From positions 2,232,001 through 2,296,000 of the forward strand of contig NZ_CP129235.1 in assembly GCF_030413635.1 (NCBI RefSeq): a DNA stretch of 64,000 nucleotides. Direction: 5' to 3'. The stretch comes from Planococcus shenhongbingii. GTDB lineage: Bacteria > Bacillota > Bacilli > Bacillales_A > Planococcaceae. The number at the start of each line of letters is the position of its first letter. Positions within the stretch are counted from its first letter, which is position 1. The position numbers were made by a program, and so were the translations under genes. A model generated the notes under the pieces. It was given only the letters and a program-made list of their open reading frames with translations, had not been told where the DNA came from and did not search any database. This document shows, piece by piece, positions 35,461 to 50,941 of the stretch.

Positions 35461-36014
35461 GGGATTCACCAAATTTCAATTTATTAAAGTCGCCGATATT
35501 AAATGAATTATATCAGATTTCAACCTAAATGAGCGCGGTTTTACATGTAACTCCTATACTGTAATATAACGCTTTATTAAAAAAAATTTTGGAGGTGAAA
35601 TCTTCTCTAGCATCAAAGAGTGAACTTCCACTGCAACTATTTCTGCAAGTTCTCCGACGGCATTTCTTCGTTGGATTGAACGTTACAGACTTCTAGAACT
35701 GCAAAACCATTCGTAACATACGCTATTGCACACAAAAAGAGAGAAGATAAGCTTTGATCAGCCTCTTCCCTCCCTTCTATTTGTGCAGCTTCTGATAAAT
35801 CCTTATATGTAAACTTGTCTCCGCTTGAAATACCGATTTTTTAATTTTACGGAACAGCTTCTTGAATGTACTATTTTTTCTAGCAAACTTACTTTCTCTT
35901 ATTACGCTTCAAACTCCATTTCATGTCCTTAATTTTTCCCAAGGACTGGATCGGTTGCACGTCTTTGATTTCATCCTGCTTATTTCGCATGGTTTGCACC
36001 TCTTTCAAGACTTC
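35461..36014. other. Spacer upstream of the GntR gene
   Basis: About 550 bases. Apart from element R3 I see only AT-rich DNA. GAATGTACTATTTTTTCTAG at 35864 is similar to GAATGCATCATTTTTTCTAA at 36565, a short two-copy repeat. Confidence 0.4.
35711..35817. repeat. Dispersed hairpin element, copy R3
   Basis: TCGTAACATACGCTATTGCA, hairpin AGAGAGAAGA / TCTTCCCTCCCTTCT region, then GTGCAGCTTCTGATAAATCC and TTATATGTAAACTT. Same order and flanks as R1 and R8. Confidence 0.75.
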
Positions 36015-36389
36015 TTATTGATCAAAGGGCAGGCGTGGGTCTTCGTCTTGGTAAATGGAATACATGGTTCCAGCGCTTTCCATGGCCGAACATGCCGTAT
36101 CTGTACAAGCGAAAATATGGGTTTGTTTATCCGTATAAACATTTACGCCGAAGTAGTAGGGGAACGCGCCTCCTTTTGATTTCTCTATCCATGGGTCGAT
36201 CGCAATAACAGTTTCCCGAGCTGCAATCCCTTGGTAATCGGCACTTCCCACTGTTTTTTGCACCATTTCGCTTAATGCGATTTCTTCTTCCTCTGTAGGT
36301 TGAAATAACAGCCAATCCCCCAACAGAAATAAATTAATGGCTAAACTGACAATTAATAATCCGATCAAAAGCTTCTTTTTCATCGTCAT
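36015..36389 (-). CDS. Membrane-anchored hypothetical protein
   Basis: 124 residues. One N-terminal membrane segment (LLIGLLIVSLAINLFLLGDW, residues 6-26), then an extracytoplasmic domain with two Cys close together (FACTDTACSAM), which could form a disulphide. GGGAGCATGACG precedes the ATG; a second ATG two codons later is possible. No family recognised. It lies just beyond the left end of the palindrome-punctuated gene array. Confidence 0.6.
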   Translation of the reverse strand: MTMKKKLLIGLLIVSLAINLFLLGDWLLFQPTEEEEIALSEMVQKTVGSADYQGIAARETVIAIDPWIEKSKGGAFPYYFGVNVYTDKQTHIFACTDTACSAMESAGTMYSIYQDEDPRLPFDQ

Positions 36390-36630: not shown

Positions 36631-36662
36631 GAATGTAACTTACTTGCTAATAAGTTACATTC
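36631..36662. repeat. 32-bp palindrome HP1
   Basis: Arms GAATGTAACTTA and TAAGTTACATTC pair over all 12 bases around the 8-base loop CTTGCTAA. It lies 38 bases after the stop of the gene at 36701. There is no T tract, so it is not a standard terminator. Confidence 0.95.
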
Positions 36663-36700
36663 GTTGAAGTAGAAAATTTCTTGGAAGCCAGCTGGCAACC

Positions 36701-37006
36701 TTAGAAACGTTCCCCTTTTTTTCCGAGTAAAACAGCTAATACTACAAAGATATAAGGGTAGGTCAGAAGCGTCAATTCGAGAAATCCATACCCAAATAAC
36801 ATCGCTGTCGATTCTTCATCCGAATAATAACCAGCGCCAACCATATAAGTTCCAAGTAAAAAATAACTGCCGATTGATAAAATAATGAAAATAAGTCCAA
36901 TTATATTTAATTTGAATTTGAAGAGCGTATAAAGCAAAACAGGTATATAGATTAGCCCTAATATAAGCAAAAATCCGAAAATATATAACGGTTCAAAGAC
37001 ATCCAT
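36701..37006 (-). CDS. Small integral membrane protein (array gene A)
   Basis: 101 residues with three hydrophobic helices (about 8-28, 34-58 and 72-95) and a basic C-terminus (GKKGERF). GGAAAAG is upstream of the ATG. No signature is recognised. It is the last gene of the minus-strand array; palindrome HP1 follows its stop and HP2 precedes it. A membrane immunity protein is possible by context only. Confidence 0.6.
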   Translation of the reverse strand: MDVFEPLYIFGFLLILGLIYIPVLLYTLFKFKLNIIGLIFIILSIGSYFLLGTYMVGAGYYSDEESTAMLFGYGFLELTLLTYPYIFVVLAVLLGKKGERF

Positions 37007-37163
37007 TTTCTTTTCCTCCTTTCCAGCAAACTAGGTTTCTCAGTGGTTTCTAGCAGCCACAAAAACCCCTGCCATTGATATTAATAACAACGACTGGGGC
37101 TTACAAAAGTTTCCATTCAAAGAGAATTGATTAATAAAATGATTCTACTTTACTGGCAGTTTT

Positions 37164-37195
37164 GAATGTAACTTAATTCACATTATGTTACATTC
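37164..37195. repeat. 32-bp palindrome HP2
   Basis: Left arm GAATGTAACTTA, loop ATTCACAT, right arm TATGTTACATTC (one mismatch). It is 67 bases after the stop of the acetyltransferase gene at 37263. Confidence 0.9.
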
Positions 37196-37262
37196 AAATC
37201 CATTAATAGAGCCTTAAAAATCTCTGTTCTTAAAAAACCTTTTAATCTTTAAGGTTAATCTT

Positions 37263-37748
37263 TTATATTTTTAAAACCATTTCTATTGTTTTCAGTATGT
37301 GTCCATCGAAATTATCATCAAACTCTCTAACAGCTTCAAATGCTTTTGCTTCGTAAAATTTTACCCCTGACAGATTTTCCTTTTCAACCTCCACAAAAAT
37401 TTCTTTCACTCCATCTAATTCTTTGATGCCTTGCTCTAACAATGCTGAACCTATTCCTAGCCCTTGATATTCAGGATAAATATAGATAGCAGCTAACCCG
37501 ACTATTCCATCGTCATTTACTCGAGAAAAATTAGCGAAACCAACAACTTTTTCAGAAATATTGGCTACAAGAACAATCGATTTCTCCATACGTTGCTGCA
37601 TTCTATTGTCATTGTATGCAGAACTTAAAAAGTTCTCTTGAACATCTAAAGGAATTATCCCTTCGTAAGTAGAATTCCAAGTTTTTTTTGCAATATCTTG
37701 TACTTGTTTAATATCTCCTTCTTGCATTCTTCGAACTAAAAATTCCAC
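37263..37748 (-). CDS. GNAT-family N-acetyltransferase (array gene B)
   Basis: 161 residues. The GTG at 37748 follows AAGAGGGA; longer readings would begin inside palindrome HP3. The GNAT fold is clear: FLVRRMQEGDIKQVQDIAKK, then VLVANISEKVVGFANFSRVN, motif A VGLAAIYIYPEYQGLGIGSA with the Q-G-L-G-I-G acetyl-CoA loop, and motif B NLSGVKFYEAKAFEAVREF. It transfers acetyl from acetyl-CoA to an unknown amine. As a single gene between two palindromes it behaves as one unit of the array. Confidence 0.85.
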   Translation of the reverse strand: MEFLVRRMQEGDIKQVQDIAKKTWNSTYEGIIPLDVQENFLSSAYNDNRMQQRMEKSIVLVANISEKVVGFANFSRVNDDGIVGLAAIYIYPEYQGLGIGSALLEQGIKELDGVKEIFVEVEKENLSGVKFYEAKAFEAVREFDDNFDGHILKTIEMVLKI

Positions 37749-37807
37749 AAATATCCCTCTTTTCAATTCCTTTTTGTGAATCCTATGTTCTTTATGTCCA
37801 TATTTCT

Positions 37808-37839
37808 GAATGTAACTTAACTGCACTTTTGTTACATTC
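37808..37839. repeat. 32-bp palindrome HP3
   Basis: Left arm GAATGTAACTTA, loop ACTGCACT, right arm TTTGTTACATTC (two mismatches). It lies 43 bases after the stop of the gene at 37883. Confidence 0.88.
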
Positions 37840-37882
37840 GATCCTTCAAAGCATCGGCTGTCTTTGCATTGATACTTCTACT

Positions 37883-38374
37883 TCATTGATCGAGATAAGG
37901 AGATTGAAAACTTTCCACATACAAACCTTCGATTCTTTTTAGTTCTTCTATAATCTCATCTGTCAGGCTTTCTCCCACAAAATACATATAGTAATCGTAG
38001 CCAAAATGGACCTCAAACTGATTTTTGGCAACCAGTCTCCCCCAGACCACTCCTCTGAGAATCATCTTAATTAACTCCCTAACCAAACTGATGGGAATGG
38101 TCTTGCCTTCGGACAAGTTTAATGCGGTTTCATGTGAATAGTTTTCCAGGTCCACCAGCTTCAGATGATTGACCCCAGTTTTTTTTATGAGCACTTCCAC
38201 AGCTTGGATGTATTTTTCTTCGGTCACCAGGTATTGCTCCATCGTGAAAATCTGGCCTTGGTACAACTTTCCGACATCGGACATGCCAATCCATTCCTCC
38301 ACTAAGGTGTAGTGGCCATTCGCATCCCGTTTTTGCGGATTGTACTTGGTGACACGCACAGAGTTCATCCTCAA
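37883..38374 (-). CDS. Hypothetical protein (array gene C)
   Basis: 163 residues from a TTG start with GGGAGGG upstream; an ATG two codons later (38368) is equally possible. It is soluble and acidic, with the segments YTLVEEWIGMSDVGKLYQGQ, EKYIQAVEVLIKKTGVNHLK and VHFGYDYYMYFVGESLTDEI. I do not recognise the family. It follows gene D by about 35 bases and precedes HP3, so C and D form the one two-gene unit in the array. An immunity role is suggested by neighbours only. Confidence 0.55.
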   Translation of the reverse strand: MRMNSVRVTKYNPQKRDANGHYTLVEEWIGMSDVGKLYQGQIFTMEQYLVTEEKYIQAVEVLIKKTGVNHLKLVDLENYSHETALNLSEGKTIPISLVRELIKMILRGVVWGRLVAKNQFEVHFGYDYYMYFVGESLTDEIIEELKRIEGLYVESFQSPYLDQ

Positions 38375-38411
38375 TCTTCCCTCCCATTCTTGTTAAGTGC
38401 AGCCGCAGCCT

Positions 38412-39107
38412 TTACCTGGAATAGCTGAATATCGCCCAAGGCAGCCAAAAGTATTCCTCCGATTCGTCGTTGCTGTATTTTGCGTAGCGCATCGCTTCTT
38501 CCAACGAAGGGATGAGCCCATGCTCATTCAGCTTGAAATCAAAGTGCTCGTCATACTCCCTTTCCTGTCCATTAAACAGATAGGTAATAAATGCGCCATA
38601 CTCGAACGCTAATAGTTCATACCCCAGCAATGTGGCACCTGTTTTTTCCACTTCGATGCCGTTGAGCAGCAGCTTCTCGAAGCCGTACCGCTCTTTGTCC
38701 GGCTTCACCAGCGTCCCTTCATAGGTGAGAAAGTATTGGACCAGCTCTTCCGGCAACCCGATGCCGACCAGCAGAGGCTCCGGCACATGCGTGAGAAATC
38801 GTGCGCAGAAATCCCGGGCGGTGGCCAGCGTCATAAACACTTGGGAATAGGTGAACAGCCCTTCGGCAAACCTATCCTCGACCCATTTTTCGATCGCCGC
38901 ATAGTCCGTTTCCGGCAATCCCAATTGCCGCGCATACCTTCGTTTTCCGGCAACGGAAACATTATAGGTCACAAACACCGTATCCGGATGGAACTTGCAG
39001 AAGTACTCACTTAACGACAGGATAATTGGCGGGACGAGGGTCTCATCCATACCTTCAGGCCGTGGGCAGGGGTCAATGATGTAATAGCCGCCCGATACAT
39101 GCTTCAT
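38412..39107 (-). CDS. Hypothetical protein (array gene D)
   Basis: 231 residues. The ATG at 39107 is placed after AAAGGAGGAAGG; the frame is open 19 codons further without a site. It is soluble, with PPIILSLSEYFCKFHPDTVF, EKWVEDRFAEGLFTYSQVFM and a tail EEAMRYAKYSNDESEEYFWL. No known domain was recognised. GC content is visibly higher than that of the neighbouring array genes, hinting at a different origin. It is probably co-transcribed with gene C. Confidence 0.55.
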   Translation of the reverse strand: MKHVSGGYYIIDPCPRPEGMDETLVPPIILSLSEYFCKFHPDTVFVTYNVSVAGKRRYARQLGLPETDYAAIEKWVEDRFAEGLFTYSQVFMTLATARDFCARFLTHVPEPLLVGIGLPEELVQYFLTYEGTLVKPDKERYGFEKLLLNGIEVEKTGATLLGYELLAFEYGAFITYLFNGQEREYDEHFDFKLNEHGLIPSLEEAMRYAKYSNDESEEYFWLPWAIFSYSR

Positions 39108-39311
39108 ATCCTTCCTCCTTTCCAATCGGTTCCATTGCTTAGGACCAGGTCGCTCCATCCTCACGGTTCTTCGAAACCGGTAAGTGGGTGGAAGTCCGGG
39201 GCGTCCAGGTTTTATTATTGCATGAAAAGGCCATTCGCCTTCTTTTCCTAAATATACCAGGGAACAAACTCAAGAACCAGAACATTCGACTAATGAACTT
39301 TCCGCAACCAG

Positions 39312-39427
39312 CAGAGACCAGAGAAAAGGAAGAGCTGCGCTGATCGTACTGCACAGCTCTTCCTTTTTCGACTTCACCCCATGTCCAAATGGTGGGGCTT
39401 CTGATAAGTCGGGATATGTAAACTTAG
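39312..39427. repeat. Dispersed hairpin element, copy R4
   Basis: Hairpin AAAAGGAAGAGCTG / CAGCTCTTCCTTTTT followed by GGGGCTTCTGATAAGTCGGG and ATATGTAAACTTAG. The right flank is the same as in the other copies. Confidence 0.65.
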
Positions 39428-39521
39428 TGATCAACTAAAAAGAACCGATATATGACATAATTAAAAAAAGAATAAAAGGAGCAGGTTAAATCTGCACCTT
39501 TTACTGTCTTAAACTATATAT

Positions 39522-39773
39522 TTAGATTATGCCTTCTGAAATTTGATAAAAAAGTACGTAAGTTAAATAGCCTCCTAAAAAAATTCCTCCAAGAAGCAAA
39601 AAAAGTTTAATTATCCAATAATTCACAAGTGGAGGGAGGAATAAGGTATTTTTAAAAACCCTGTACTTCTCCGTTTCTACGAACTCTTTCTTTTTCAAGA
39701 CAAAGATTGCGAATAAAGCACAAGAAAAGCACATAAGTATAACAGCGATAAAGCCAATTATTTCTCCTGCCAT
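39522..39773 (-). CDS. Small two-helix membrane protein
   Basis: 83 residues. Two hydrophobic helices (about 5-25 and 50-75) surround a basic loop (KKKEFVETEKYRVFKN). AGGAG precedes the ATG. No motif recognised. It sits in the 3-kb interval between palindromes HP3 and HP4, together with other array-type genes. Confidence 0.55.
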   Translation of the reverse strand: MAGEIIGFIAVILMCFSCALFAIFVLKKKEFVETEKYRVFKNTLFLPPLVNYWIIKLFLLLGGIFLGGYLTYVLFYQISEGII

Positions 39774-39850
39774 ATTTTTTCTCCTTTCTATTACCTATAG
39801 TTAGTCTCACAATGCAGTCTTAATCTGAGCTAATCTGAGCTTTAATAACT

Positions 39851-40116
39851 TTATACATCATTTCCATTCCACCTTCGGTAGGGATTCAAGTAGTCATGCT
39901 GCTTTCTGGCTTCCTGTTCACCAAAGGCATTAGCCAGATCATATAGAAGGGGCCTTAATGAGAAGGATGCTTTCCTCAAACATTTTATGGTCATCGGTGG
40001 AATTTTCATTCCTCATTTCTGGATCTGGCTCTTCTGAAATGAGGCATTCATACAAGGTCTTGACGGCATACCAGTCCCAGTCCTTGGTCGTTTTTTTCCA
40101 AAGCCTTTTTTTTCAT
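39851..40116 (-). pseudogene. DUF4288-like gene broken at an A8 tract
   Basis: A start with ribosome site GAGGAGGGG reads ATG then a run of eight A. In frame, only MKKKALEKNDQG follows before a stop. One base shorter, it would read KRLWKKTTKDWDWYAVKTLY, ECLISEEPDPEMRNENSTDD, HKMFEESILLIKAPS. The W-Y-A-V-K...E-S-I-L-L-I-K-A core is DUF4288-like (from memory). A second shift near 39945 leads to YDLANAFGEQEARKQHDYLN. It is either a phase-variable or, more likely, a dead gene. Confidence 0.6.
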
Positions 40117-40373
40117 CGTCCCCCTCCTCGAAAACTAGGTTGTCTTATAAAAGTTATATAAATAGTTGCAAGGGTCTAACCGTGAAGATAATTTCATTGC
40201 GGATGTCCATAACTTAACTTAAGGATCTTTTCTAAAGGAAGTTTAGAAGTAGATTCGATAGAAGCACTGGAATATCCTTCCTAACTGGATTAGTTAACGG
40301 GTTCTTGAACTGGTGGCTTCTGGTTATTGTGAGATTTCATTTTGTATGAATAAGCTTAGTCTACTAATGAAGC
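40117..40373. other. Spacer upstream of the DUF4288-like remnant
   Basis: No gene seen. AT-rich DNA leads into element R5. Confidence 0.3.
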
Positions 40374-40460
40374 GTTCGTAAAAGTACACTTATCCAATCC
40401 AAAAGAAGAGAAAAGCTCATCTGGCTTCTTCCCTTCTGGTAAATCGTAATATGTAAACTA
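40374..40460. repeat. Dispersed hairpin element, copy R5
   Basis: GTTCGTAAAAGTACACTTAT, then AGAAGAG / CTTCTTCCCTTCT hairpin, then TAATATGTAAACTAG. It is shorter than the other copies because the GCTTCTGATAA block is reduced. Confidence 0.6.
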
Positions 40461-40556
40461 GTTTAAAATTATAGACTAGCATATTGACTACACTCTTAAA
40501 GTATAATTAGTTAAAAATAAAACCCCAATTAGAATGTTTTTGGAGGGATAGTCAAA

Positions 40557-40808
40557 TTGAATGAAACATATGATTTTAAAGTTGATTGGTGCAAGATTTG
40601 TGGTCAAGGTTGGGTAACCATCGTAAAAGATAAAGTTACAAATCAATTTACTGTAATGTGTGCAGAGTGCGAAAACGAGTGGGACCATCCGCTGCATGCT
40701 CAATCTAATATAAAGACTAAAGAGGTCAGTGAAGAGCATTTGGTAGTGAATCCTTCAAAAGAAGAGATTCAGGAAAATGGATGGGATGTATATATTATTA
40801 GAGAATGA
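40557..40808 (+). CDS. Zinc-ribbon protein (array gene E, opposite strand)
   Basis: 83 residues from a TTG start 8 bases after GGAGGGA. Two CxxC knuckles (CKIC at 12-15 and CAEC at 35-38) form a zinc ribbon, followed by an acidic helical tail ending EEIQENGWDVYIIRE. Similar short proteins occur among immunity-type genes in Bacillales, from memory. It is the only plus-strand gene in the 36-43 kb array. The function is unknown. Confidence 0.6.
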   Translation: MNETYDFKVDWCKICGQGWVTIVKDKVTNQFTVMCAECENEWDHPLHAQSNIKTKEVSEEHLVVNPSKEEIQENGWDVYIIRE

Positions 40809-40877
40809 TAGCGCTGAACTTCCTTTGATAGTTTACTTTCTCTAGTTCCTGTTCAAAGTCTTTAAAACAAAGCTATT

Positions 40878-40909
40878 GAACGTAACATAGTTAGCAATAA
40901 GTTACAGTC
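40878..40909. repeat. 32-bp palindrome HP4
   Basis: Left arm GAACGTAACATA, loop GTTAGCAA, right arm TAAGTTACAGTC. It is the most diverged copy and overlaps the stop codon of the SUKH gene by two bases. Confidence 0.85.
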
Positions 40910-41339
40910 AATCTTCGTCAAAATCTTCTAGTTCTTCCTGAGCGATGATAATAAAATCTTTTAAAGTAGGAGCTAGCTGTTCCGTTTCATCTGTTTCATG
41001 AAGCCATAAAAAAATTGGATCATCTGCTTTTCCACCTTCTACTTTCAGGCACAAGTAATCGCCAGTCCCATTCCCAGCGATCGCAATAAGATCTTCAGAA
41101 ATTACATCAGTTAAAACTTCCTTGTTTTGTCTGACTACATCGTCCCATGTCTTTTTTAGATTCTTAGAATCTTTGATGGGGAATAAACTCCATTCCCCTA
41201 CCTCGGGACCGTTAGCCAATTTAAACAATTGAACATACTGATCCGGGAAACATACGTTTAACTTTTGTTCCGTTTCTCTTATTGCTGCCTCCTCTACACC
41301 CTTTTTATTTGTCTCCAACAGCTTGATAATCTCTTGCAT
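40908..41339 (-). CDS. SMI1/KNR4 (SUKH) family immunity-like protein (array gene F)
   Basis: 143 residues, one SUKH domain: IRETEQKLNVCFPDQYVQLF, KLANGPEVGEWSLFPIKDSK, AIAGNGTGDYLCLKVEGG, DDPIFLWLHETDE, and an acidic end LEDFDED. The pattern 'E..L....P..Y......NG......' then 'G.GD......' defines the family. SUKH proteins are known as immunity proteins of polymorphic toxin systems and as general interaction domains. No toxin gene is next to it. It is a single-gene unit between HP5 and HP4. Confidence 0.85.
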   Translation of the reverse strand: MQEIIKLLETNKKGVEEAAIRETEQKLNVCFPDQYVQLFKLANGPEVGEWSLFPIKDSKNLKKTWDDVVRQNKEVLTDVISEDLIAIAGNGTGDYLCLKVEGGKADDPIFLWLHETDETEQLAPTLKDFIIIAQEELEDFDED

Positions 41340-41374
41340 AATTTAACCCCCGTTTTTAATCTAGCTGCCAATCT

Positions 41375-41406
41375 GAATGTAACTTACTTGCTAATAAGTT
41401 ACATTC
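41375..41406. repeat. 32-bp palindrome HP5
   Basis: Perfect arms GAATGTAACTTA / TAAGTTACATTC, loop CTTGCTAA, identical to HP1 although 4.7 kb away. It is 42 bases after the stop of gene G. Confidence 0.95.
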
Positions 41407-41448
41407 AAACTGGAATAAAACCAAGTGCTGCTAATACCGTAAATATTT

Positions 41449-42015
41449 TCAGGATTCAAGGTCACTACTCATTAGATCAAGCGCATAATCTTCCGATATG
41501 CAGTGCGTGACTTTTCGAGGTGTATTGTATTTTTCATTCTTCGTGAATACAGTAAGACCGACCTCCTGTACATCAATAAATGTTTCGACCTTTCCAAAAT
41601 CGAGGTTTCTAAATTCCGTAGGTCCCCCCCATTTCTTGGTTGGAACTAAATCCGCTTCAGAAAGGCCTTCCCCAAAGAAAATAAAGATTCTCATTCCATT
41701 TGAAGCCAATTCAACCGTGCTTTCGCAAATTACTGCTAAGATGTCAACTGAATCAATTTTGACAATAAAACCATCAGAATCAAATCTATAGAAAGGCATA
41801 TTCCTTTCCATAATAATCTTTTCTACGTGCTCAAGCATCACAAAGTCCAACGCAAAAAAAACAGGAAAGGCGAACATATTCTGGGCCAACGTAAAAAGGA
41901 AATCAGGTTCCATGTCCCTAATTCCTACTTCAACTGATTGAAATATATCTTTTGGAAGGGAAAAATCATTTAATATACTAGGGTCGGGATGTTGGACAAA
42001 ATATTGTTTTTTCAA
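41449..42015 (-). CDS. Hypothetical protein (array gene G)
   Basis: 188 residues, soluble. Segments include YFVQHPDPSILNDFSLPKDI, PFYRFDSDGFIVKIDSVDIL and KVETFIDVQEVGLTVFTKNE. A GGAGGTAAG site lies before the ATG. I know no family for it. The size, solubility and position between two palindromes in a series with a SUKH gene suggest an immunity-type protein; that is context, not sequence evidence. Confidence 0.55.
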   Translation of the reverse strand: MKKQYFVQHPDPSILNDFSLPKDIFQSVEVGIRDMEPDFLFTLAQNMFAFPVFFALDFVMLEHVEKIIMERNMPFYRFDSDGFIVKIDSVDILAVICESTVELASNGMRIFIFFGEGLSEADLVPTKKWGGPTEFRNLDFGKVETFIDVQEVGLTVFTKNEKYNTPRKVTHCISEDYALDLMSSDLES

Positions 42016-42044
42016 TTCCTTACCTCCTACTTAGACTTATAAGT

Positions 42045-42076
42045 GAATGTAACTTAATTAGTAATAAGTTACATTC
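42045..42076. repeat. 32-bp palindrome HP6
   Basis: Perfect arms GAATGTAACTTA / TAAGTTACATTC, loop ATTAGTAA. It lies only 5 bases after the stop of gene H. Confidence 0.95.
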
Positions 42077-42081
42077 GTTTT

Positions 42082-42546
42082 TCATATTCCCAAATGGTAA
42101 AGATAGAGGTTCTCTTCTTCCAATCTCTCAATCATAGACAGCAGCCTTTTCAATAATTCGAGCACATCATTTCTAGAAAATACTAGACGTTCACGTCCGC
42201 CTAACATTTTTTTGTTGGAAGAATGCACGAATTCCCCAGTCAGTTCCAGCTTTTCAGGGGAATTCGTAAATAAAGAGTGCCATGCCTTAATGATGTTTTT
42301 CATAGTTGCTGCTGACGTTTGATCAAAAAGGGTCACCCCATAATAATTTATTCCTATGCCTTCTTTCGTCATCGATATCGCTGGATTTTTACACGGAATC
42401 CAGTTCAAAGAATCGGCTATGTATTGAATCAAATCGTCTGGTATATCTATAGAGTCAATAATGTCTATATTTTGTTCATTGCGCTTCATCAACTCTGAAT
42501 AAGCCACTGTATTGGGCACTAAGAAAAATTCATGTTCTAGGCTCAT
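42082..42546 (-). CDS. Hypothetical protein (array gene H)
   Basis: 154 residues, soluble: IPDDLIQYIADSLNWIPCKN, GIGINYYGVTLFDQTSAATM, KNIIKAWHSLFTNSPEKLEL, and the ending LLKRLLSMIERLEEENLYLY then HLGI. The YYG...W..LF..(A/S)P..L.L...(F/Y) and terminal Y-x-H-L-G-I pattern recalls a recurring immunity-type family of Bacillales that I cannot name with certainty. Ribosome site AAGGGACGAAAG. Single-gene unit. Confidence 0.6.
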   Translation of the reverse strand: MSLEHEFFLVPNTVAYSELMKRNEQNIDIIDSIDIPDDLIQYIADSLNWIPCKNPAISMTKEGIGINYYGVTLFDQTSAATMKNIIKAWHSLFTNSPEKLELTGEFVHSSNKKMLGGRERLVFSRNDVLELLKRLLSMIERLEEENLYLYHLGI

Positions 42547-42583
42547 CTTTCGTCCCTTCTAAGCTTTCAGTTTCTCGGTTTTT

Positions 42584-42615
42584 GAATGTAACTTAATTCA
42601 CAATAAGTTACATTC
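42584..42615. repeat. 32-bp palindrome HP7
   Basis: Perfect arms GAATGTAACTTA / TAAGTTACATTC, loop ATTCACAA, one base different from HP2's loop. It is 31 bases after the stop of gene I. Confidence 0.95.
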
Positions 42616-42646
42616 ATATTAAGGTAAAAAAGCAGAACATAAATTT

Positions 42647-42904
42647 TTAACGATTTCCCCATATTTCTAAAGCAAATGGGTAGCATTTCTCAACTGCAAA
42701 ATATTCTTCGAATTCCTGACCAAAAAAGTATATAAATATTTGTCGGATTCCCAATGTAAGTTCTTCGGTAGATTGCATATAATTTAAAGTTTTTAAAACT
42801 TCTTTTATTTCAAGGGAATATGCATCATGTGGCTCTCCCATATCCAGTAAACCCATAGGATCCCATTCGTTAATTACTCTTTTAATTAAATGATACTCGT
42901 CCAC
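42647..42904 (-). CDS. DUF1871-like protein (array gene I)
   Basis: 85 residues, all-helical. IKRVINEWDPMGLLDMGEPH, DAYSLEIKEVLKTLNYMQST, LTLGIRQIFIYFFGQEFEEY follows the DUF1871 pattern (I..WDP...........Y..E......L... then I..IF...FG), as in YugE. AAAGGAGGGA is upstream of the ATG. DUF1871 proteins have no proven function, though they recur among immunity-type genes. Single-gene unit between HP8 and HP7. Confidence 0.75.
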   Translation of the reverse strand: MDEYHLIKRVINEWDPMGLLDMGEPHDAYSLEIKEVLKTLNYMQSTEELTLGIRQIFIYFFGQEFEEYFAVEKCYPFALEIWGNR

Positions 42905-42945
42905 ACCTATCCCTCCTTTATATTTGAGTATTTACAATGTCGTCC

Positions 42946-42977
42946 GAATGTAACTTAACTGCACATAAGTTACATTC
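42946..42977. repeat. 32-bp palindrome HP8
   Basis: Perfect arms GAATGTAACTTA / TAAGTTACATTC, loop ACTGCACA, one base different from HP3's loop. It is 19 bases after the stop of gene J. Confidence 0.95.
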
Positions 42978-42996: not shown

Positions 42997-43329
42997 TTAT
43001 TTTCCGTCTAACTCAGCTACCCATCCTTTAAACCAATCGGGAGGTAATTCTAACTTGGAGAGGTCCATCTTCATTAGCTTTTCATGAGAATAAAACTCAT
43101 ACCAATGCAATTCCCATTGACACTCAATATCTCTTGCAATAACAAAAGCTAATTCGTCTTGCTCATCTAAATCTTCATCTTCCCAAGCCAGCGTTAAATT
43201 ATCGCACCACATGCAAAAATCAACTTGAGGAAATAAATTTTCTCTCTTGCAAACTGCATTTAAAAGAGTCTTAAGATTTTCATAGGAATAGGGAAGATTA
43301 ATGCTGGTCTTATTCCAATTCCATTCCAT
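42997..43329 (-). CDS. Hypothetical protein (array gene J)
   Basis: 110 residues. I took the ATG at 43329, with CAGGGGTG before it; an upstream ATG at 43347 overlaps that site. It is acidic and soluble, with many Trp: MEWNWNKTSINLPYSYENLK, VDFCMWCDNLTLAWEDEDLD, ECQWELHWYEFYSHEKLMKM. No family known. It is the first gene of the minus-strand array and begins 19 bases after the end of the MerR-type remnant, with which it may once have been co-transcribed. Confidence 0.55.
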   Translation of the reverse strand: MEWNWNKTSINLPYSYENLKTLLNAVCKRENLFPQVDFCMWCDNLTLAWEDEDLDEQDELAFVIARDIECQWELHWYEFYSHEKLMKMDLSKLELPPDWFKGWVAELDGK

Positions 43330-43347
43330 ACTGAACACCCCTGCCAT

Positions 43348-43793
43348 TTATTTGTTCCAGGTCCTGACCCATAGGTTTCGTGTATCTTTTTTAGGCGTTA
43401 CCGTTTTAGGTTCGCTTTCTTCCGGCTGTGAGGGCGATTCTGGCGCCTCTAACTCGGGTTCGTTCGGTACTGGTGCAAGTAATTGCTTCTGTTGCGCTTC
43501 CATCCGATCGATTTTCTGCTGCATTTCCTCCAAAACTTCCACAAACATGATATCCCGTTCTTTTTGACGCTCTTCTTGTTACTGTAGCTGAATTCTCAGC
43601 TGTTTGACTTCTTCTAGCGTAGCAACTGCTATGTCGTCGCTACCGCGCTTGCGTGGCGCTACAGAGACATTCTTTTTCAAAGCCACAGATGCCTCTACAA
43701 CAGCCTCTTCAAGCGATTTTTTACCACTATGTACTGCGGCTATGATGCCTTTAATCGCTATGTATTCGCTATCCGTATAAAGTCGGGCGTTTT
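43348..43793 (-). pseudogene. Truncated MerR/DUF3967-type regulator
   Basis: The minus strand reads LYTDSEYIAIKGIIAAVHSG, KKSLEEAVVEASVALKK, then LEEVKQLRIQLQ, a TAA, QEERQKERDIMFVEVLEEMQ and a Pro/Glu-rich tail ending in NLWVRTWNK. The KERDxMxxxxLxEMQ block is typical of the DUF3967 C-terminus of MerR-like regulators found on Bacillus plasmids and phages. The DNA-binding N-terminus is missing at the border with the IS remnant. One nonsense codon lies within. Confidence 0.7.
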
Positions 43794-44335
43794 ATCACAC
43801 TGAATCTTTGAGCGCGCAATTTCACCGATTATGCGCCGAACCAGAAATGGGTGACGGATATCTCACCTATATCCAATACGGGAGCTCGTCGATGTACCTG
43901 TCGACGATCATGGACTTGTTCAACAACGAAATTGTCGCGTACAAGATGTACAATCACCAGCAGACGCCGCTGGTCACCGATACGTTGAAAGAAGCGCTGG
44001 CGTTGCGGGAGAACCCTGAAGGGGTCATCGTCCATTCTGACCAAGGGGGTGTGTATACCGCGTACCAGGAATTGGTCAAGAAGAGCCACTTGGTCAGCAG
44101 CATGTCGCGGCGCGACAACTGCTGGGACAATGCGGTCATCTAATCGTTCCATTCCAATATCAAATCGGAGGAATTCCAGTACGTCAAATTCAATTCGATG
44201 CACAATATCCAAGTCGTGGAGAAAGTGAATGTATACATACGTTACTACAACGAAGACCGGATCCTAGAAAAATTAGGCTACCTGACGCCCCAAGAATTTG
44301 GGGCGCAAGCAGCCTAAAGAGGTGTTTTATATGTG
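43794..44335 (+). pseudogene. Dead IS3-family transposase fragment
   Basis: The OrfB core starts abruptly (NFTDYAPNQKWVTDI), shifts frame by two extra bases near 43862, then continues LTYIQYGSSSMYLSTIMDLF, VIVHSDQGGVYTAYQELVKK, MSRRDNCWDNAVI. The next codon is TAA exactly where the catalytic Glu (NAVIESF) belongs. The frame then resumes SFHSNIKSEEFQYVKF to the natural stop at 44317. OrfA and the left end are gone. It differs in sequence from the intact IS at 22193. Confidence 0.9.
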
Positions 44336-45687: not shown

Positions 45688-46181
45688 ATATAGACCTCCT
45701 TCTTATATAGTGAATCTGCCTCGCTAAATTTGAAGCGATTCTAAGATAATACACATAATTTAGAGAAAATACAATCTATTATTCCGAATCAATAGTATTA
45801 CACAATAATTTTAACTTCTCAATCCCTTGCCGCCCTAAGGCTAGTAAGTCAACAAACAAAATTTTATAATTTTATTTTATTTAGTGTCCGAAACAGTTAT
45901 TTTCTCTTTCATCCTCTTATATTCTGCTTCGCATGCCGAAAATACGGACTCAGTCATTTAATTGATTGTTGACTGTAATTATTATTTTGAAATAAGACCT
46001 TAAAGATTTGTCTGAGTAATTTATACAGTTGACTCCTGGTGTCAAAAAATCTTTTTTTATGGTTGCATGGCGTTATGAGGCCGTTATTTAAATTTCGAAT
46101 CTTTCCTTTACTGCCCTCTTGGCTTCTTTTACACTGAACTCATCGGGACAACCCGAACACAAAAACCGCATACCGTTTTCT
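45688..46181. other. Spacer between the MFS gene and the TPP riboswitch
   Basis: About 490 AT-rich bases holding the divergent promoters. No credible gene; a 36-codon minus-strand frame with a CSGC motif (46088-46198) overlaps the riboswitch and has no ribosome site. Confidence 0.4.
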
Positions 46182-46270
46182 GCACTAGGGGTGCCCATTA
46201 TAGCTGAGATGCAAGCGCAAGCTTCGATCCCTTATAACTCGATCCAGATAATACTAGCGTGAGGAAGTGC
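46182..46270 (+). promoter_or_regulatory. TPP (THI-element) riboswitch
   Basis: Conserved blocks of the thiamine-pyrophosphate aptamer are present in order: GGGGTGCCC, GCTGAGATG, a variable stem-loop (CAAGCGCAAGCTTCG), then TATAACTCGATCCAGATAA and TACTAGCGTGAGGAAGT. Ends GCACT / AGTGC pair as P1. It lies about 100 bases before ykoF, with a terminator between, so thiamine pyrophosphate should stop transcription of the operon. Confidence 0.93.
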
Positions 46271-46316
46271 GGCGCATTTCTGAAATGATTCTATCCTGAA
46301 TTTATTTATAGAACTG

Positions 46317-50818: not shown

Positions 50819-50941
50819 CGTTCTTAAAAGCACACCTATATAGACAATAAGAAAAAGCAGTGCCGACAGCACTGCTCTTCCCCTTTTGTATTTTGCTATT
50901 AGAATTACTGCTACTTCTGATAATCCTTCATATGTTAACTA
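50819..50941. repeat. Dispersed hairpin element, copy R6
   Basis: GTTCTTAAAAGCACACCTAT, AGACAATAAG, hairpin GCAGTGC / GCACTGC, CTTCCCCTTTTGTATTTTGC, then TACTTCTGATAATCCTTCAT and ATGTTAACT. The left and right flanks match copy R7 especially well. Confidence 0.75.

Follow-up and report, generated by a model that had tools for sequence, protein, structure and literature searches.

Cassette platforms that are served by a dedicated recombinase are, to our knowledge, known chiefly as integrons, whose attC recombination sites are long imperfect hairpins with extrahelical bases. Arms and spacers of another kind are found in the Cre/loxP and Flp/FRT systems, where inverted arms of 12–13 bp surround an asymmetric 8-bp spacer. 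Polyimmunity loci hold SUKH and similar immunity genes, and we know of no description of palindromic sites in them. In Acinetobacter, plasmid gene modules (pdif/pXerC-D modules) are bounded by short tyrosine-recombinase sites and cointegrates occur; the sites are used by the host XerC/D and have a 6-bp central region, and the active pairs reported have GGTGTA in common as this region, on which reversibility reportedly depends (PMC9947245). Here, we describe eight 32-bp palindromes in a 64,000-nucleotide stretch of the Planococcus shenhongbingii genome (assembly GCF_030413635.1, contig NZ_CP129235.1, positions 2,232,001 to 2,296,000 of the forward strand; hereafter "the window"), together with their relatives on small Planococcus plasmids. 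Comparison of these sequences makes it likely that the palindromes are the core sites of single-domain plasmid tyrosine recombinases of ~187 amino acids (aa), with the spacers acting as addresses for slot-wise exchange. We found no description of such a cassette system in the open-access literature, a search that had subscription journals and preprints outside its reach and that does not establish priority.

The palindromes were first noticed in a preliminary description of the window made from its sequence alone. All eight were recovered at the positions given there, each exactly 32 bp long and matching GAATGTAACTTA-N8-TAAGTTACATTC with, in order of rising coordinate, 0, 1, 2, 3, 0, 0, 0 and 0 mismatches; the number expected by chance was 0.00 (100 shuffles). 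As reported, they sit at gene 3' ends: seven are found 5–67 bp past the end of a minus-strand open reading frame (ORF), and the copy at 40878 overlaps the stop of a SUKH-family gene by 2 bp. Two interpretations had been offered, namely a recombination site that separates exchangeable single-gene units, like attC in form and unrelated to it in sequence, or a 3'-end RNA element or protein-binding site. The comparative data favour the first, based on the linked tyrosine recombinase on plasmids of relatives, the clustering of copies and the breaks in homology at the palindromes, and disfavour the second, based on the near-invariant 8-bp spacer and the ordered spacer classes. The orientation of the spacers, their classes and their nearly fixed order were beyond the reach of a reading of one sequence.

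On small Planococcus plasmids, a MerR-like gene is followed by the sites, with cassettes between them, and then by the gene for a 187-aa tyrosine recombinase. We analysed 42 records selected for holding the recombinase, such that the layout counts are silent on the frequency of sites without it. A MerR-like hit was present in 36 of the 42 records, on the strand of the recombinase and the array in all 36. The first site was no more than 60 bp from the end of the MerR-like hit in 20 of these 36 records, and 19 of the 20 sites belong to a single spacer class, class A (see below). The last site, whatever its class, lies 220–245 bp before the recombinase match in 17 of the 42 arrays, a placement like that of the integron attI. 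Of 144 ORFs that run along the arrays, 112 have their stop between -12 and 60 bp from the following site, and the cargo is broad, with 93 ORF families among the 144. No intact recombinase was found beside an array among the chromosomal loci that we mapped.

The recombinase matches the Phage_integrase domain (PF00589; E 1.9e-21, residues 32–176 of 188), and residues R48, K72, H136, R139, H162 and Y171, which we take to be the catalytic R-K-H-R-H/W-Y set of tyrosine recombinases, are invariant in 22 homologs; both the domain and the residue set that define a tyrosine recombinase are therefore present. The nearest folds to a structure model (mean predicted local distance difference test score of 80.5) were those of XerA and XerH-difH, with a template modelling score of ~0.7 of the query. 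The family comprises 2734 proteins at E ≤1e-20, and 501 plasmid records hold a homolog at E ≤1e-30, 481 of them with <60% identity. Where the homologs are more distant, 14 of the 26 loci examined (L169, L170, L175, L177–L182, L184, L187, L117, L165 and L113) have a like palindrome upstream of the gene, often with drifted arms that resemble GAATGTAAC in some cases and ATGTATGCT or AACGTATGA in others. In L117, where the recombinase is 68% identical, the arms have changed symmetrically, and a Bacillus badius record (L308) also has a palindrome upstream of its recombinase homolog. From this distribution we infer an ancestral one-site system for plasmid maintenance or integration, with multi-site arrays having arisen mainly in Planococcus.

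The sites have a 12-8-12 plan. When any spacer of 0–20 bp and up to 3 arm mismatches were allowed and redundant loci were kept, 294 of 299 sites had a spacer of exactly 8 bp; two of the five exceptions come from L090 and L101, in which the site that follows the MerR-like gene has collapsed. This is the structure of loxP-type sites, with inverted arms of 11–13 bp and a constant, asymmetric spacer of 6–8 bp. Four spacer classes can be distinguished along the array, namely A (nGTGCAGn), B (nTGTGAAn), C (nTAGCAAn) and D (nnnCTAAn), to which 274 sites were assigned (78, 68, 67 and 61, respectively). The order A<B<C<D was respected by 125 pairs of classed sites, with 5 discordant (permutation mean 65, minimum 43; 2000 permutations). 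No exact spacer was repeated within any of 35 multi-site arrays (shuffled mean 6.8; 0 of 10000 shuffles reached 0), and this test is independent of the classes. The order tests covered 42 arrays and 124 sites, with orientation set by the recombinase alone; we left out four redundant or truncated arrays of 46 (L088 at 968 and 16395, L102 at 12445, and L167) and one doubled site in L107, and entered the L105 array manually. Arrays were read 7.5 kb upstream only and were split at gaps >4.7 kb, such that the initial sites of L098 were lost. In chromosomal arrays, the class order is ABCD, a variant of this, or a concatenation such as ABCDAB.

As in integrons, the array is directional and consists mostly of single-gene cassettes, with a palindromic site after each and a tyrosine recombinase next to one end. 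Unlike the integron integrase, the recombinase consists of the catalytic domain only and scores 31.1 bits against the TIGR02249 integrase model, for which the cut-off is 265; unlike attC, the site is 32 bp with 12-bp arms and a near-constant 8-bp spacer, and its spacer classes are ordered. The arm and spacer plan is that of Cre/loxP and Flp/FRT cassette exchange, in which unlike spacers would block excision within an array and allow exchange; the differences are the natural use of multiple slots on many plasmids and a fold closer to XerA and XerH than to Cre. The window cassettes resemble polyimmunity loci in including SUKH, DUF1871 and GNAT genes, whereas the cargo of Planococcus arrays as a whole is much broader. 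Compared with pdif modules, the Planococcus arrays differ in having a linked, plasmid-encoded recombinase, symmetric 12-bp arms and a position-coded 8-bp spacer in place of the XerC and XerD half-sites and 6-bp centre of pdif (PMC9947245).

We propose that the recombinase would recognise the 12-bp arms, and that the asymmetric spacer would set the direction of recombination and would need to largely match between partners. On Planococcus plasmids, mostly single-gene cassettes follow one another head to tail from the MerR-like gene to the recombinase gene, with the sites at their ends. When a cell holds two arrays, these could swap a cassette between like-spaced sites, such that genes would change and slots A-B-C-D would mostly stay in order. 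Given that spacers differ within an array, excision from the same array would not occur readily, and a swap between arrays would be possible. The layout, spacer length, order, non-repetition, breakpoints at sites and conserved catalytic residues are observed directly; the action of the recombinase on the palindromes, and spacer matching as the cause of the order, are what these sequence patterns suggest. We also favour, by a narrow margin of confidence, a broader proposal: that the arrays represent natural multi-slot recombinase-mediated cassette exchange, with A–D as the addresses of a genus-wide, slot-by-slot trade in genes that keeps slot order.

Homology between plasmids breaks at the sites. 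Excluding ends at contig ends, 45 of 794 inter-plasmid alignment ends had a site no more than 3 bp away in each of the two plasmids, compared with a mean of 0.16 and a maximum of 3 over 1000 random-offset control repeats, indicating that gene borders do coincide with palindromes. The two sites were of one class in 34 of the 45 breakpoint pairs, two of which are unclassed pairs sharing a spacer (shuffled mean 12.7, maximum 23; 5000 shuffles), and the spacer was identical in 19. A 496-bp A-B cassette is 98.4–100% identical in five genomes (L102, L104, L109, L095 and L153), and both 200-bp flanks were at the random level in six of the ten pairs, with left/right identities of 9.5/5.5% (L102/L104), 2.0/18.5% (L102/L109), 8.5/10.0% (L102/L153), 10.5/1.5% (L104/L153), 5.0/3.0% (L109/L153) and 3.5/3.0% (L095/L153); 30 random pairs gave a mean of 11% and a maximum of 45.5%. 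The left flank was related in three of the remaining four pairs (52.0, 79.0 and 73.5%), and both flanks were related in L109/L095 (70.5 and 99.5%). A sixth copy, in L151, is 73–75% identical. Two arrays on the same L102 contig share one B-to-D cassette that is identical, sites included, over 380/380 bp, with unrelated left flanks and right flanks that are 86% identical. Of the 30 pairs of cassettes that are ≥90% identical, 19 occupied a common slot, compared with a mean of 5.9 and a maximum of 18 after shuffling; the corresponding figures were 16 of 35 (shuffled 6.9) at 60–90% identity and 2 of 13 (2.6) at 35–60% identity.

Ordinary homologous recombination between short repeats or conserved ends could instead move the cassettes, with the recombinase only resolving plasmid dimers at the last site. 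The single upstream site that is common for small recombinases elsewhere (14 of 26 loci) is what dimer resolution predicts, and in one case the junction itself fits such an exchange: a cointegrate-like contig, L088, joins plasmid L091, which is also free in the same genome, at a D site. This contig is not decisive for site-specific recombination, as 295 identical bp lie beside the site, such that the crossover cannot be placed within the site and either homologous recombination or misassembly into a chimera could account for it. Nonetheless, in the six A-B cassette pairs described above the sequences are unrelated for 200 bp outside the 32-bp sites on both sides, and RecA exchange leaves the ordered, non-repeated spacers unexplained. 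We consider it unlikely that homologous recombination is what moves the cassettes.

A 3'-end RNA element, in which a transcript hairpin ends accessory genes as a bidirectional terminator or stabiliser, is less probable still. The stops of along-array ORFs lie close to the next site, as such an element predicts, and four of the eight window sites had folding z values of -3.5 to -7.3. Across 115 distinct sites, we counted 123 positions with a change in one arm versus 12 with changes in both; 11 of these 12 preserve pairing, as in a hairpin, which speaks for some advantage of symmetry, whereas the predominance of one-sided changes fits duplex half-site recognition better than a conserved hairpin. 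The stem is AT-rich and no U tract followed the hairpin in folds of four window sites, unlike a Rho-independent terminator and consistent with the earlier judgement that ordinary termination is unlikely. Moreover, a constant 8-bp loop, ordered loop classes and breakpoints at the sites are all unexpected for a terminator. No Rfam element was found at the sites, in a library that may hold no attC model; the sole match in the window is a thiamine pyrophosphate riboswitch elsewhere (46177–46282, 59.4 bits). Finally, it is very improbable that the palindromes are operator or anchoring sites of the MerR-like protein, with borders reflecting selection against insertions elsewhere, since the constant strand of the MerR-like gene and the suitability of palindromes for dimeric binders are offset by MerR-like hits that have diverged (30–100% identity to two queries) with unchanged arms, and by several homologous recombinases that keep an upstream palindrome with no MerR-like gene found in stretches of ≤20 kb.

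Several observations weigh against recombinase-mediated exchange between addressed slots, for which the support is entirely comparative. The recombinase, a catalytic domain only, is too short to include the usual N-terminal binding domain, a difficulty for its reading of 12-bp arms, and a matching upstream palindrome was not found at 12 of the 26 homolog loci. Within the genus, 45 of 46 genomes carry sites but the recombinase (≥87% identity) is present in only 18, with recombinase-bearing genomes only modestly richer in sites (median 15 versus 11, p = 0.038). The longest ORF runs against the array in 43 of 187 inter-site segments (1.3-fold rule), and the paired two-arm changes are those that a hairpin would show. 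We drew up the classes by eye from the very data on which their order was then tested; 15 of 124 spacers are unclassed, and four arrays have one class twice among A–C. In eleven of the 45 breakpoint pairs, the two sites differ in class, and the plasmid pairs cannot be counted as independent because many same-class breakpoints are an A site beside a shared MerR-like backbone. Similarly, 11 of the 30 near-identical cassette pairs differ in slot, and one gene sits in A-B in L106 and in B-C in L120, and has a C site at its end in L093. Cassettes favour particular slots without being tied to them.

The source genome (3.98 Mb, one contig) holds 25 copies of the palindrome at ≤3 mismatches and none of the reversed pattern. 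All 25 fall in six clusters rather than in random scatter, and chance or random dispersal is ruled out for this genome. Dispersed intergenic copies that delimit no cassettes, as in repetitive extragenic palindromes or miniature inverted-repeat transposable elements, are likewise not what we observe, given that the copies are clustered and the sites bound cassettes. Confinement of the copies to clusters holds for the source genome; isolated single copies occur in some other genomes. At ≤3 mismatches, the positive genomes of the genus have 1 to 59 copies each. At ≤2 mismatches, copies were found in 46 of 261 genomes of the family, and outside the genus in 1 of 215 (G062), which has three chromosomal copies within 1.2 kb, two on a plasmid, and a recombinase that is 74% identical. 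A scan of named genomes returned at least 118 stretches; among the 80 matches listed, all were from Planococcus or Planomicrobium except one Gracilibacillus contig. Of 38 plasmid records hit, 22 from Planococcus and one from Lysinibacillus matched over ≥80% of the 32-base query. Based on the genome, named-genome and plasmid record searches, the host range is the genus Planococcus in the wide sense. A phage origin was rejected: no exact palindrome was found in viral_contigs, and 0 of 17 matching phage records cover 80% of the 32-base query.

At 20 loci from other genera, a scan with three arm motifs found single sites only, such that arrays with other arms could be missed. In a Bacillus velezensis plasmid stretch (L312, 326–876 and 7432–7461), the recombinase is 61% identical. 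Its four palindromes have arms related to those of Planococcus (ACATATGCTTT, AATGTATGCTT), and one of them lies ~550 bp ahead of the recombinase; a stricter test retained two besides the recombinase-adjacent one. L312 is a possible second multi-site system, and its related palindromes indicate that multiple sites may occur outside Planococcus. The Gracilibacillus contig (L199, filed under G. boraciitolerans) has an A-B-x array, and its first 660–725 bp, including the MerR-like gene, are 90–96% identical to several Planococcus plasmid contigs, which may reflect either an inter-family transfer or a contaminated draft genome. A Lysinibacillus capsici plasmid, pFN9D (L056), carries the recombinase, one site per repeated unit, and annotated cfr and lsa(B) drug-resistance genes. 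In a Carnobacterium plasmid (L311, 2787–4578), a MerR-family gene, an acetyltransferase gene and a homologous recombinase gene are adjacent, with strands mixed; no palindrome family of this kind was seen in L311.

In the window, the array lies on the minus strand and reads from high to low coordinates. It begins with a MerR-like remnant (43351–43791, borders approximate) that has an in-frame stop, 33% identity to residues 42–197 of the MerR-like protein of L053, and a similar tail (..PKKDTR.LW.R.WNK); an ORF at 43808–44143 that gives the impression, from its sequence, of a transposase fragment abuts this remnant. A 116-aa ORF (42997–43347) precedes the first site, HP8 (42946–42977; class A, gene-sense spacer TGTGCAGT). 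The A-B cassette that follows encodes an 85-aa DUF1871 protein (PF08958; 42647–42904) and ends at HP7 (42584–42615; class B, TTGTGAAT). Two ORFs without a Pfam match come next, one of 154 aa (42082–42546) before HP6 (42045–42076; D-type, TTACTAAT) and one of 188 aa (41449–42015) before HP5 (41375–41406; class C, TTAGCAAG). The gene for the 143-aa SMI1/KNR4 (SUKH) family protein (40908–41339) meets HP4 (40878–40909), a degenerate D-type site with spacer TTGCTAAC and 3 mismatches. Beyond ~3 kb with other ORFs and two dif-like repeats lies HP3 (37808–37839; class A, AGTGCAGT), followed by an A-B cassette with a GNAT acetyltransferase gene (37263–37757), HP2 (37164–37195; class B, ATGTGAAT), a B-C cassette with a 101-aa ORF (36701–37006) that has a 93% identical counterpart among the cassette ORFs of plasmid contig L105, and HP1 (36631–36662; class C, TTAGCAAG). 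The last two genes are a 124-aa ORF (36015–36389), 76% identical to L053 240–611, where the homolog directly precedes the recombinase, and the first 35 codons of a recombinase gene (35904–36008), 77% identical to that of L053. HP1 and HP5 are identical, as first described; the single-base differences reported for HP2/HP7 and HP3/HP8 hold for the 8-base loop, and over the full 32 bp these pairs differ at 2 and 3 bases, respectively.

The window class order is thus A B D C D A B C, and both end genes are truncated. Probably, two array pieces, A B D C D and A B C, were concatenated here and have persisted as an immobile chromosomal remnant. The linked recombinase that the preliminary description proposed looking for is present on plasmids of relatives, and the window holds only the remnant. 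Elsewhere in the source genome there is a single homolog of 37% identity, at 1870949, and the array is therefore probably a fossil, barring supply of the enzyme from a plasmid.

Another repeat, CTTCCGATAA-N6-ATATGTAAACT, resembles a Bacillus dif/XerCD site. It occurs on the plus strand beside the window array (35789–35815) and twice inside this composite array (39398–39424 and 40433–40459), with weaker copies in the window at 50914 and 55509, and near several other chromosomal arrays. In 15 of 36 plasmid records it precedes the MerR-like gene by ~144–158 bp and is on the strand opposite that gene (0 of 36 for a control stretch); on the MerR strand, it was found in 0 of 36. These repeats are possibly pdif-like sites in Bacillota.

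If our proposal is correct, plasmids of Bacillota have a platform unrelated to integrons, in which an order-keeping spacer code would provide a second way to store and trade single genes, by slot-wise exchange as distinct from the free insertion and shuffling of the integron. The compact recombinase and its naturally distinct spacers would also be of use for genome engineering. For Planococcus itself, such exchange would explain the chromosomal arrays of immunity-like, acetyltransferase and orphan genes.

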